From Archaeoglobaceae archaeon (lineage in GTDB: Archaea > Halobacteriota > Archaeoglobi > Archaeoglobales > Archaeoglobaceae): a stretch of DNA of 38,267 nt. The stretch's first letter is position 1. Each line of letters opens with the position of its first letter. A program made the translations under genes and the position numbers. Below are positions 1-38,267 of this stretch, piece after piece. The stretch spans positions 1 to 38,267 of the forward strand of contig WAPX01000048.1 of NCBI GenBank assembly GCA_015520485.1. The letters are read 5' to 3'. The notes beneath the pieces were generated by a model. That model saw only the letters and a list, made by a program, of their open reading frames with translations. It searched no databases and was not told the DNA's origin.

Positions 1-858
1 ACTGTTCCTCAGGCGGCAAAAGAGGTGGGGGTTAGCAAAGTCATAGGCTACGTATGGCTTGAAAAGTGGAATGAAAAGGGATTGGAAGGCTTAAAACCAA
101 ACTACGGAGGGGGAGACCTTCAGAACTAAGCAAAGAGCAAAAGGAAGAGCTAAGGAAGAGCTCAAAACTATTCTTGAGAAAAGGGATGATTGGACAACCG
201 AGGAAGTGAGAGAACTGATCAAAGTTGGTGTGGAGTACAGCTTAAGACATGTGAGCAGACTGCTAAAATCCTTCGGAATGAAATATGCAAAACCATACCA
301 GAAAGACTACAGAAGACCTGAGAACGCTGAAGAAGAGCTTAAAAAAACTTGAAGAAGTTGAAGTTGATTTTGATAGCTGCATAATAGGATTTCTGGGATG
401 AAACTTCACCTCAGCTCAATGCAAACACTCAAAGGCCCTTTCAATAAACCATCTGTAAAGAAGAACACTACAAAAATGAGGGGGCAACACCTTCGGTTTC
501 TATGCGATAAACGGTGAGAGTGTGGTGGATTTTAAGGAAAACTCCAAGAAAGAATCTGTTTGCGATTTTCTAGAGAAGATAAGAGAGAAGAATCCAGATA
601 AAACCATAGTGAGCATTCTAAATAACTTCAGATCACGCTGGGCCAGAAAAGGAACCGAACATAGTTTTGATTTATCGCCTCCTTATTCTCCCGACCTGAA
701 TCCGATTGAACAAATCTGGAGAGCTATAAAAAGAGTACTGTCCCCTCATAAAAACACTAGAGGATCTTAAAGAAGTTATTTCGAGTAGTTTTTACCAGTT
801 AACTCAGAAGAGAAGCTTTGTTGAGAGGTGGATTGAGAAGTTTTTGAGTTTTGGTTAG
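1..858 (+). pseudogene. IS630-family DDE transposase, broken by frameshifts
   Basis: Translation in shifting frames gives a helix-turn-helix N-terminus (bases 1-125), a middle part that matches the right-hand copy, and a C-terminal DDE part at 522-858. The diagnostic motif PPYSPDLNPIEQIW, containing the last catalytic acidic residue, lies near 680-720, and the reading ends KFLSFG at the TAG of 856-858. The reading frame is broken at about 115, at the 11-base duplication of 141-162, by a small deletion near 220, and again between 350 and 520 and near 755. The position normally holding the second catalytic Asp reads SILNNFRSR (near 612-640), so Asn has replaced Asp. The 5' end lies beyond the window. 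The product would be inactive. Confidence 0.85.
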
Positions 859-35401: not shown

Positions 35402-36598
35402 ATGAAGTTTTCGAGCGTGAACCTCTCCGCAGGATACGATGGAAGAGTTGTTGTTGATTGCGTAAATCTGGAAGTCAGAGCTGGTGAAATAGTGGCTGTT
35501 CTCGGCCCGAACGGGGCTGGAAAATCAACTCTGCTGAAAACTCTCGCCTCAATTCTAAAGCCCGTAAACGGAGCAGTTTACGTTGATGGCAGGAGAACTG
35601 ACCTCATGAACCCATCGGAGCTCGCAAAGAACATTTCCGTAACTCTCACAGAAAAAATAGATGCGGGATTCATGACAGGTTTTGAAGTCGTGGCTCTCGG
35701 AAGGTATCCTTACTCTGACGCTTTTGGAAGGCTTGGCTGTGAAGACGTGAGAGTTGTGGAAGAGTGTCTGGAGCTCGTCAACGCAAAAAATCTGGCCTCA
35801 AAACCCTTCTCCGAAATGAGCGATGGTGAGAAGCAGAAGATAATGATTGCGAGAGCTTTGGCTCAAAAACCTGCAGTAATTCTGCTCGACGAGCCCACGA
35901 GCTTCCTCGACGCAAAGCACAGGGTGGAGATTATGCTGCTCCTGCGCAGAATAGCTGAAAAAGGAGTTGCCGTTCTCATAACAACTCACGACGTGGAGCT
36001 GGCTCTGAGGCTCTGCGACAGAGTTGTCCTGCTATCAGAAGGTAGAGTTGTGTGCAGTGGAGAGCCCGAGCTAGTTCTCAGAGATGAGCTGCTGAGAGAG
36101 GTTTACACAACCGAGAAGGCGAGCTTCAGCGAAGAACTCGGAACCTTTGAAGTTTCATCTGATTCCCGCTCCGAAAAACCAGCCATTCACGTCGTGTGCG
36201 GAGGGGGAACGGGTTACTCGATAATGAGGTTTCTGGCGAGGAAAAGCATACCTTTCACGGCTGGAGTTCTGCATTCGGGAGATGTTGACTGCTGCGTGGC
36301 AAGGACGTGTGCGGTTGAGTGCATCGTGGAGAGAGCGTTTGAGAAAATAAGCCCTGACAGGCTTGAGGCGTGCAAAAAAATCGTGGAGGGAAAAACGGTC
36401 ATCGATTCAGCATTTCCCGTTGGTGTGCTGAACGAAGCAAACCTTGAAATCTTCGAGGTAGCAGACAGGGTTATATCTTTTAGAGAAAAGGGGGAATTCA
36501 AAAAACTATCCTGCCGTGAAGCAACTTTTGTTAAATCAACGAAGGAGCTCCTCAGGTGCCTCGAAGAACTTCGTCTCTTGCCCTTTTTGCACTCTTAG
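35402..36598 (+). CDS. BtuD-like ABC ATPase with C-terminal Rossmann-like extension
   Basis: The 398-residue protein joins a FecE/BtuD ATPase (1-250) to an extra domain (about 257-398). Walker A is GPNGAGKST (35-43), the signature is MSDGEKQK instead of LSGGQ, and Walker B is VILLDEPTSFLD. The extension starts IHVVCGGGTGYSIMRFL, a Gly-rich nucleotide-binding-like loop, and has DVDCCVARTCAVEC and IDSAFPVGVLNEANLEIF. I recall the same length and layout in the haloarchaeal cobalamin importer ATPase BtuD, which supports a corrinoid role; this comparison is from memory. ATG 35402 is preferred over TTG 35396. The 3' end overlaps the convergent zinc-ribbon gene by 47 bases. Confidence 0.82.
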   Translation: MKFSSVNLSAGYDGRVVVDCVNLEVRAGEIVAVLGPNGAGKSTLLKTLASILKPVNGAVYVDGRRTDLMNPSELAKNISVTLTEKIDAGFMTGFEVVALGRYPYSDAFGRLGCEDVRVVEECLELVNAKNLASKPFSEMSDGEKQKIMIARALAQKPAVILLDEPTSFLDAKHRVEIMLLLRRIAEKGVAVLITTHDVELALRLCDRVVLLSEGRVVCSGEPELVLRDELLREVYTTEKASFSEELGTFEVSSDSRSEKPAIHVVCGGGTGYSIMRFLARKSIPFTAGVLHSGDVDCCVARTCAVECIVERAFEKISPDRLEACKKIVEGKTVIDSAFPVGVLNEANLEIFEVADRVISFREKGEFKKLSCREATFVKSTKELLRCLEELRLLPFLHS

Positions 36599-36944
36599 CA
36601 ACAACTCTCGCTCTGTGATTCTCCAGCTTTTTCAGAACGTCCAGAGCTCTGTCGACTCTGCTGCTCATCAGTTTCAGAGCTTTCACGACCTCCAGCAGTA
36701 CGGGAACGCTGTTTTCCCTCTCAACGAACTTTTCCAGAGCGTTCACCGCCTTTTCTCCACCAATTCTGCCAAGGACGTTTATGGCGTTTATTTTGAACTC
36801 GTCAACGGGGTGGTTGAGAGCCGAAATCAGCTTCTCTTCATAGCTCAGTCTATCAAAGGACTCGAAAGAAAAATTACAGTAGGGACAAACTTTGCACCCT
36901 TCTTCTACCTCCTTCCAGCACTTCGGGCAGAAAAACGTGGGCAT
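36552..36944 (-). CDS. Zinc-ribbon/HEAT-repeat protein
   Basis: The 130-residue protein begins with five cysteines (6, 9, 17, 20, 23) in FFCPKCWKEVEEGCKVCPYC, a zinc ribbon. Short helical repeats of HEAT type follow (EEKLISALNHPVDEFKINAINVLGRIGGEKAVNALEKFVE and so on). Such proteins usually serve as adaptors. It lies 29 bases downstream of the COG1689 gene on the same strand. Its 3' end overlaps the BtuD-like gene by 47 bases in antisense. Confidence 0.72.
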   Translation of the reverse strand: MPTFFCPKCWKEVEEGCKVCPYCNFSFESFDRLSYEEKLISALNHPVDEFKINAINVLGRIGGEKAVNALEKFVERENSVPVLLEVVKALKLMSSRVDRALDVLKKLENHRARVVAKSAKRARDEVLRGT

Positions 36945-36973: not shown

Positions 36974-37795
36974 TCAGTACAGCATTCTGAGCAGAGATTT
37001 CACCGCGTAGTACGAGAATTCCAGACTCGAAGTACCGAGGTAAACGCTCCTTCTGAAACCTCCATCGGCATTCTGCAGGCCGGAGATGTACCTAATCGTT
37101 TTCACGTTTCTGTACTTCTCCCCCATTATGTGCAGGCTCTCCACGGCAAAAAAGGTATCCTCGATGTAGGGTGGATAGCTTTCCGGAACCTTTGAAAATC
37201 CACCGTCTTTCCACTCCCTGTTCGTTATAAATCTGACAACTTCCTCGTCCCTTTCTGAGAGAACGTAAACGCAGTAGTACGTGTCCTCTAGATTCGGTAT
37301 TTTCACGCCGAACCCCTTTGCATGCCCTTCTTTTTTCTCGAACATCCTGACGAAATCTCTCGCTTTTTTCAGCTCCTTGCACTTCACGTTCAGAAGTCTC
37401 AGCACATTTACCAGAGAGTAAACTTCTCTCAGCACGTTGGGCATGTCGAAGGAGTACGTTGCTGTTATGCCCGATTCGAGCTCGTGAATGTCTCTAACTT
37501 CAACCTTTTTCACCCTGCTCATCGCCCTGTTCAGCCTTTCGACAGCAAACCCCTCTACATCTGGCAATTCCTCTCCAAGCAGGTTTAGAGTATTCAGAAC
37601 GAAGTAAACGGAGTGCGGGTTCATTTTTAACGAAGAGTGCAGGTAGTCAACGAGCCTCTCTTTTTCAGGAATTTTCTCGTTCAGCGAATTCAGTATGAAA
37701 ACAGCATAGTACGTCTCCGGCAGAGAAGAAGGCAGGGGATAACAAAAAGCAAAGCCCCCATCTTCAGCTCTTCTTGAGAGCACATACTTCTTCAA
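36974..37795 (-). CDS. COG1689-type alpha/alpha-toroid protein (prenyltransferase/terpene cyclase fold)
   Basis: The 273-residue protein carries the repeats of the prenyltransferase beta-subunit and squalene-cyclase fold: EDGGFAF near the N-terminus, WKDGGFSKVPESYPPYIEDTFFAVESLHIMG, and LQNADGGFRRSVYLGTSSLEFSYYAVKSL at the C-terminus. No catalytic DxDD or zinc-ligand set of the cyclases or prenyltransferases is evident, so function is unknown. The nearest canonical start is TTG 37795. Homologous-looking sequence (VLAEVIDAESLKKYV) continues upstream in the same frame to about 37825, and the good Shine-Dalgarno site is at 37829-37837, so the true start may be non-canonical and further upstream. 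Confidence 0.75.
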   Translation of the reverse strand: MKKYVLSRRAEDGGFAFCYPLPSSLPETYYAVFILNSLNEKIPEKERLVDYLHSSLKMNPHSVYFVLNTLNLLGEELPDVEGFAVERLNRAMSRVKKVEVRDIHELESGITATYSFDMPNVLREVYSLVNVLRLLNVKCKELKKARDFVRMFEKKEGHAKGFGVKIPNLEDTYYCVYVLSERDEEVVRFITNREWKDGGFSKVPESYPPYIEDTFFAVESLHIMGEKYRNVKTIRYISGLQNADGGFRRSVYLGTSSLEFSYYAVKSLLRMLY

Positions 37796-37940
37796 AGATT
37801 CGGCATCAATAACTTCGGCTAAGACGCTATCACCCCCTTTTCAAAGGTATAGAACAGGCGTCATCAGGCTTTAAAGCCTATTTTTTGGGGGTGGACGCCA
37901 TCACCCTGATTTTCGTCTGTCGCGTTCATTATATACATTA
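37796..37940 (-). promoter_or_regulatory. Structured leader region of the COG1689 gene
   Basis: On the minus strand a TATA-like TATATAAT (plus 37928-37940) predicts transcription start near 37908 and a leader of about 110 bases. The leader contains GGCGTC (37894-37899), CACCCCC (37887-37893), the palindrome AGGCTTTAAAGCCT (37866-37879), GACGCC (37857-37862) and GGGGGTGAT (37829-37837). CACCCCC is a perfect complement of the GGGGGTG Shine-Dalgarno-like site, and GGCGTC of GACGCC. Confidence 0.45.
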
Positions 37941-38016
37941 CGCCTATTTGTGGTACATGTATGTATCCCAGAGTTTCAAAACCATTAGTCCTGCCCTCGT
38001 GTTGTTTTAACTTTAT

Positions 38017-38267
38017 TATAGTATCTGACATAACTTACTCCACACCAAATTTGTTTTTGATCAGTTCTCTCACTTCCTTGGTTGTCCAATCATCCCTTTT
38101 CTCAAGAATAGTTTTGAGCTCTTCCTTTTGCTCTTTGCTTAGTTCTGAAGGTCTCCCCCTCCGTAGTTTGGTTTTAAGCCTTCCAATCCCTTTTCATTCC
38201 ACTTTTCAAGCCATACGTAGCCTATGACTTTGCTAACCCCCACCTCTTTTGCCGCCTGAGGAACAGT
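38017..38267 (-). mobile_element. IS630-family copy, internally deleted, outer end outside window
   Basis: Read on the minus strand, this starts with the same 151 bases as window positions 1-151. It continues with the transposase middle part in an intact frame (KEELKTILEKRDDWTTKEVRELIKNKFGVE), then jumps from the position equivalent to left base 236 to the inner terminus (gttatgtcagatactata). About 620 bases are missing, including all DDE catalytic parts. The join occurs at a shared GTA. It is a non-autonomous derivative; the outer end is not in the window. Confidence 0.85.
38037..38267 (-). pseudogene. IS630-family transposase N-terminal remnant
   Basis: The remnant codes for the helix-turn-helix part and the start of the linker only. 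The first part (TVPQAAKEVGVSKVIGYVWLEKWNEKG) and the second part (RPSELSKEQKEELK) are in different frames joined by a -1 step at GGGGGA, exactly as in the left copy. The reading stops at TAA created by the deletion join. No catalytic residue is left. Confidence 0.75.

Follow-up and report, generated by a model that had tools for sequence, protein, structure and literature searches.

The leader of the COG1689 gene near the end of the window (the whole stretch analysed, 38,267 nucleotides of an Archaeoglobaceae archaeon contig) raises the question of whether it contains an RNA switch that can hide the gene's own Shine–Dalgarno (SD) site and, if so, to what it responds. The initial annotation had proposed a switch with mutually exclusive pairings. 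This main idea holds; the known RNA class and its ligand had been missed. By its sequence, the leader is a fluoride-sensing riboswitch of the crcB motif class (RF01734) and not a new switch. It is very probably a translational riboswitch of the archaeal kind, with COG1689 as part of the fluoride response.

The aptamer and its pairings

The features of the locus are the following.

37928–37935, minus strand: putative TATA-like box TATATAAT, at a comparable position in relatives
37848–37914, minus strand: fluoride riboswitch aptamer (crcB motif, RF01734)
37902–37906, minus strand: 5' strand of P1, GGGTG, pairing with CACCC, with covariation in relatives
37894–37899, minus strand: 5' strand of the pseudoknot, GGCGTC, in the P1 loop (RF01734 alignment, covariation)
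37887–37893, minus strand: CACCCCC, of which the first five bases are the 3' strand of P1 and all seven complement the SD site
37867–37878, minus strand: P2 hairpin, GGCT-TTAA-AGCC (RF01734 alignment)
37857–37862, minus strand: 3' strand of the pseudoknot, GACGCC (RF01734 alignment, covariation)
37829–37837, minus strand: SD-like site GGGGGTGAT, the expression platform, matching GGAGGTGAT at eight of nine bases and forming 7 bp with CACCCCC
36974–37822, minus strand: COG1689 gene, encoding an alpha/alpha-toroid protein; frame intact, start uncertain
36552–36944, minus strand: zinc-ribbon/HEAT-repeat protein gene downstream of COG1689, a probable operon partner

The pairings on which the initial annotation was built are all present on the minus strand: CACCCCC (37893–37887) with GGGGGTG (37837–37831), GGCGTC (37899–37894) with GACGCC (37862–37857), and the latter with GCGTC (37827–37823, inside AGCGTC). 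When the leader is shuffled with its dinucleotides preserved, a seven-base complement of the SD site turns up in 0.9% of cases; taken alone, the complement is only mildly surprising and no more than suggestive. The minimum free energy fold of the 119-nucleotide leader pairs CACCCCC with GGGGGUG (−32.7 kcal/mol, z-score −1.7); the folding z-scores are weak and were not counted as proof. These modest values would fit chance complementarity devoid of regulatory function. The pairings are nevertheless lifted clear of chance by an RF01734 match above the gathering score together with conservation in relatives. Given this match, the covariation and the presence of the element at the same position throughout the clade, coincidence is highly improbable, and for the aptamer it is refuted by conservation.

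The match scores 35.8 bits against a gathering cut-off of 34 (E = 1.8e-6), covers all 64 positions of the full model (1–64) and, at 37914–37848 of the minus strand, is the sole Rfam riboswitch in the window. The loop closed by P1 (GGGUG/CACCC) is joined to the 3' tail by the GGCGUC/GACGCC pseudoknot, and P2 (GGCU-UUAA-AGCC) is followed by the conserved UGAUG. The GGCGTC/GACGCC pairing is thus the aptamer pseudoknot and not the competitor of the SD helix for which it had been taken. The score lies just 1.8 bits over the cut-off, and most Archaeoglobi relatives have a shorter P1–P2 linker. Copies from Thermococcus carry a whole additional hairpin between P1 and P2, so insertions are tolerated at this point. 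The aptamer occupies a 5' leader position upstream of COG1689, a gene that adjoins crcB in relatives.

The TATA-like box at 37935–37928 would put the beginning of the transcript at about 37907, where P1 has its base, and not inside 37796–37850, which the initial annotation had named as a refuting result. The near-repeat GGGTGATGGCGTC/GGGTGATAGCGTC with its CACCCCC...GGGGGTG ends was also considered as a small mobile element with target duplication, and this was rejected in view of the RF01734 match and the presence of the same element in relatives that have no such duplication.

Co-variation of the Shine–Dalgarno site with P1

CACCCCC serves both as the 3' strand of P1 and as the anti-SD strand; of the two helices, P1 and P1-3'/SD, only one can form at a time. 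In the proposed mechanism, CACCCCC would pair with GGGGGUG when fluoride is absent, hiding the SD site. Binding of fluoride with Mg2+ would stabilize the pseudoknotted aptamer, in which P1 (GGGUG/CACCC) would retain the CACCC strand and thereby free the SD site for translation of the COG1689 gene and probably also of the HEAT/zinc-ribbon gene. The leader is thus likely to be a translational ON switch, as expected for a fluoride-response gene. Its RNA presumably binds and responds to fluoride.

COG1689 homologues were sought in 60 relatives and 16 Archaeoglobi loci were examined. RF01734 lies just upstream of COG1689 in eight of these 16 loci (eight genomes), with seven copies at or above the cut-off and one below it at 31 bits. 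Of 77 named COG1689 loci from GTDB genomes, 58 were scanned for RF01734 (L087 and L088 are among those left out), and 38 of the 58 archaeal loci have the motif directly upstream of the gene. It sits further upstream, behind other genes, in four more, and several of the negative loci are distant homologues or lack upstream DNA. The positive loci include 24 of 25 Thermococci, five Bathyarchaeota, Brockarchaeota, Micrarchaeota and Methanocrinis. At two loci of one genome (L054 and L058, G023), stop codons or frameshifts seem to interrupt the COG1689 copies that follow riboswitches.

Compensatory changes, which the initial annotation had set as the test of its stems, occur in relatives in both the aptamer stems and the anti-SD helix. 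P1 and the pseudoknot are 99.1% paired over 22 distinct trimmed sequences, with 31 cells changed on both sides, and their covariation score is reached by none of 500 shuffles. Covariation of the anti-SD helix is weaker yet positive (three of 500 shuffles), and its core pair across relatives is AU in ten, GC in eight, GU in three and other in one. The segments for these analyses were trimmed manually. For the anti-SD alignment, SD sites were chosen by a picker that favoured C at position 6, and three sites that it had misplaced were corrected by hand; a count of SD and P1 sequences made without the position-6 bonus agrees with the picker-based alignment.

In that count, the P1 3' strand CACC is paired with an SD of GGUG in 12 of 12 Archaeoglobi and CGCC with GGCG in 18 of 24 Thermococci, the remainder having G.U pairs (four) or a mismatch (two, L125 and L128); sequences of the same clade are related, and these counts are not independent events. 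An 8 bp helix, CCCACCUU/GAGGUGGG, is formed in three of five Bathyarchaeota. At the Thermococci loci the SD of COG1689 is GGAGGCG in 19 cases and GGAGGTG in three, as against two and 24, respectively, for the other open reading frames of the same loci (Fisher p = 2.6e-8). Duplexes of the P1 3' strand average −11.3 kcal/mol with its own downstream region and −10.0 kcal/mol with the regions of other clades. Taken across these alignments, co-variation of the SD with P1 clade by clade, as GGUG in Archaeoglobi and GGCG in Thermococci, is supported.

A further layer of control was considered, in which GACGCC would pair with the GCGTC that follows the SD site when the latter is hidden. GGGGGTGATAGCGTC would then copy the whole P1 5' strand and loop (GGGTGATGGCGTC) and compete for both of their partners. 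The two sequences agree at 12 of 13 bases and the geometry would permit an H-type pseudoknot. The leaders of the Archaeoglobi relatives compared, however, contain no comparable GCGTC after the SD site, which points to chance or to a lineage-specific trait and makes the extra layer quite unlikely. The GACGCC/AGCGTC pairing proposed in the initial annotation is likewise absent from these leaders; it is probably incidental and was dropped as a second stem.

The COG1689 gene and its surroundings

The frame that follows GGGGGTGAT reads AGC GTC TTA GCC GAA, and there is no ATG, GTG or TTG at a normal distance after the SD site; TTA (37822–37820) lies six bases after it. A canonical start at such a distance usually goes with translational archaeal fluoride riboswitches but does not define them. 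Most relatives have TTG or ATG 3–4 bases after the SD. In the nearest relative (L008), the SD is followed by CTG; there is no canonical start close by, and this CTG seems to be used. The first canonical in-frame start (ATG/GTG/TTG) in the window is TTG 37795. It was rejected: it lacks an SD in its vicinity, and starting there would remove residues that are modelled with high confidence in the first helices. The codon found in the window may be an unusual start, an error in the sequence or a true mutation.

If the start codon has been lost, this together with mobile-element debris upstream could mean that the aptamer was inherited and no longer switches in this genome. The low RF01734 score would fit such decay, as would the missing canonical start near the SD, an IS-like repeat that ends at 37987 and the riboswitch-free leaders of COG1689 in the three same-genus relatives that have the gene (G001–G003). 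Yet all conserved aptamer cores and the 7 bp SD complement are intact, the TATA-like box sits between the IS-like repeat and the aptamer, and the COG1689 frame is uninterrupted and shows purifying selection (codon-position differences from the nearest relative of 0.19/0.14/0.57). We therefore regard decay as unlikely and retain the reading of a working translational switch. Separately, a repeat with fragments that resemble a transposase reading frame occupies both ends of the window (1–237 and 37987–38267), so the contig breaks at a repeat; the same repeat is found at the ends of contigs C61 and C45.

The COG1689 product is a prenyltransferase-like alpha/alpha toroid (PF00432), modelled at a pLDDT of 90.5. 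Its closest folds are RabGGTase beta and squalene-hopene cyclases (PDB matches at E of about 1e-8 to 1e-9, Foldseek matches at about 1e-5). It shares this fold with protein geranylgeranyl/farnesyltransferase beta subunits and squalene-hopene cyclases at only 14–16% identity. No Asp, Cys or His occurs among the near-invariant polar columns checked, so there is no sign of a zinc site or a DxDD motif. No mention of COG1689 was found in the literature searched.

The zinc-ribbon/HEAT gene also follows COG1689 at seven other loci (L008, L009, L010, L013, L016, L123 and L156) and a homologue lies near fluoride riboswitches in a further genome (G051; L061 and L063), making it a candidate second fluoride-response gene. 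COG1689 adjoins crcB in five genomes (G012, G016, G017, G022 and G028), and enolase is next in G021. A CRCB search of the window genome, rated 99.96% complete, gave nothing above the cut-off. The genome has one CLC-family gene, and neither of its two riboswitch matches lies on the contig of that gene. The second match is a sub-threshold copy of 33.1 bits (L038, contig C43, 19132–19193) that precedes the operon of a PF00146 (NADH dehydrogenase subunit 1-like) membrane protein, an arrangement also seen in G001, G003, G004 and G022. crcB RNAs have been linked to formate hydrogen lyase genes (PMC2864571, PMC11139923).

COG1689 is likely to be an archaeal fluoride-response gene. We are evenly divided on the broader proposal that COG1689 (TK0513-like) toroids are a dedicated archaeal fluoride-defence family, riboswitch-regulated in several archaeal phyla and with an SD that co-evolves with P1. 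Such a family would act alongside CrcB in genomes that have both, and possibly in its absence here. What had been an unlabelled switch now has a named, testable ligand, fluoride. The SD tracking the P1 sequence in each clade provides comparative evidence for translational control by archaeal fluoride riboswitches. An uncharacterized archaeal protein family is tied to fluoride stress, even in a genome with no recognizable CrcB exporter, which makes its function directly testable.

Comparison with known fluoride riboswitches

The window copy shares P1, P2, the pseudoknot, the conserved core and the 5' leader location with the crcB motif (RF01734). It differs in a P1–P2 linker that is a few bases longer, in its low score and in its downstream gene, which is COG1689 and not an exporter.

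The Thermococcus COG1689 loci have the same layout as the riboswitch–TK0513–crcB region of T. kodakarensis, and since this matches their order of COG1689 then crcB, TK0513 is presumably COG1689. Like the window copy, the T. kodakarensis riboswitch is archaeal and thought to be translational; the window copy has GGUG where Thermococci usually have GGCG, carries no extra P1–P2 hairpin and resides in a genome without a recognizable crcB. As of 2021, no natural archaeal riboswitch other than the fluoride-responsive one of T. kodakarensis had been determined experimentally, and its control is believed to be at the level of translation (PMC8241225, PMC11077080; Speed et al., 2018, via PMC8241225). 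Transcript mapping placed the crcB RNA 'surprisingly' before TK0513, which precedes crcB, rather than before crcB itself (PMC4247193).

The bacterial transcriptional fluoride riboswitches of B. cereus and T. petrophila follow the same aptamer logic as the window copy. In the bacterial RNAs, it is the pseudoknot strand with which a terminator competes (PMC11077080, PMC13273304), whereas in the window the SD site would compete for the 3' strand of P1.
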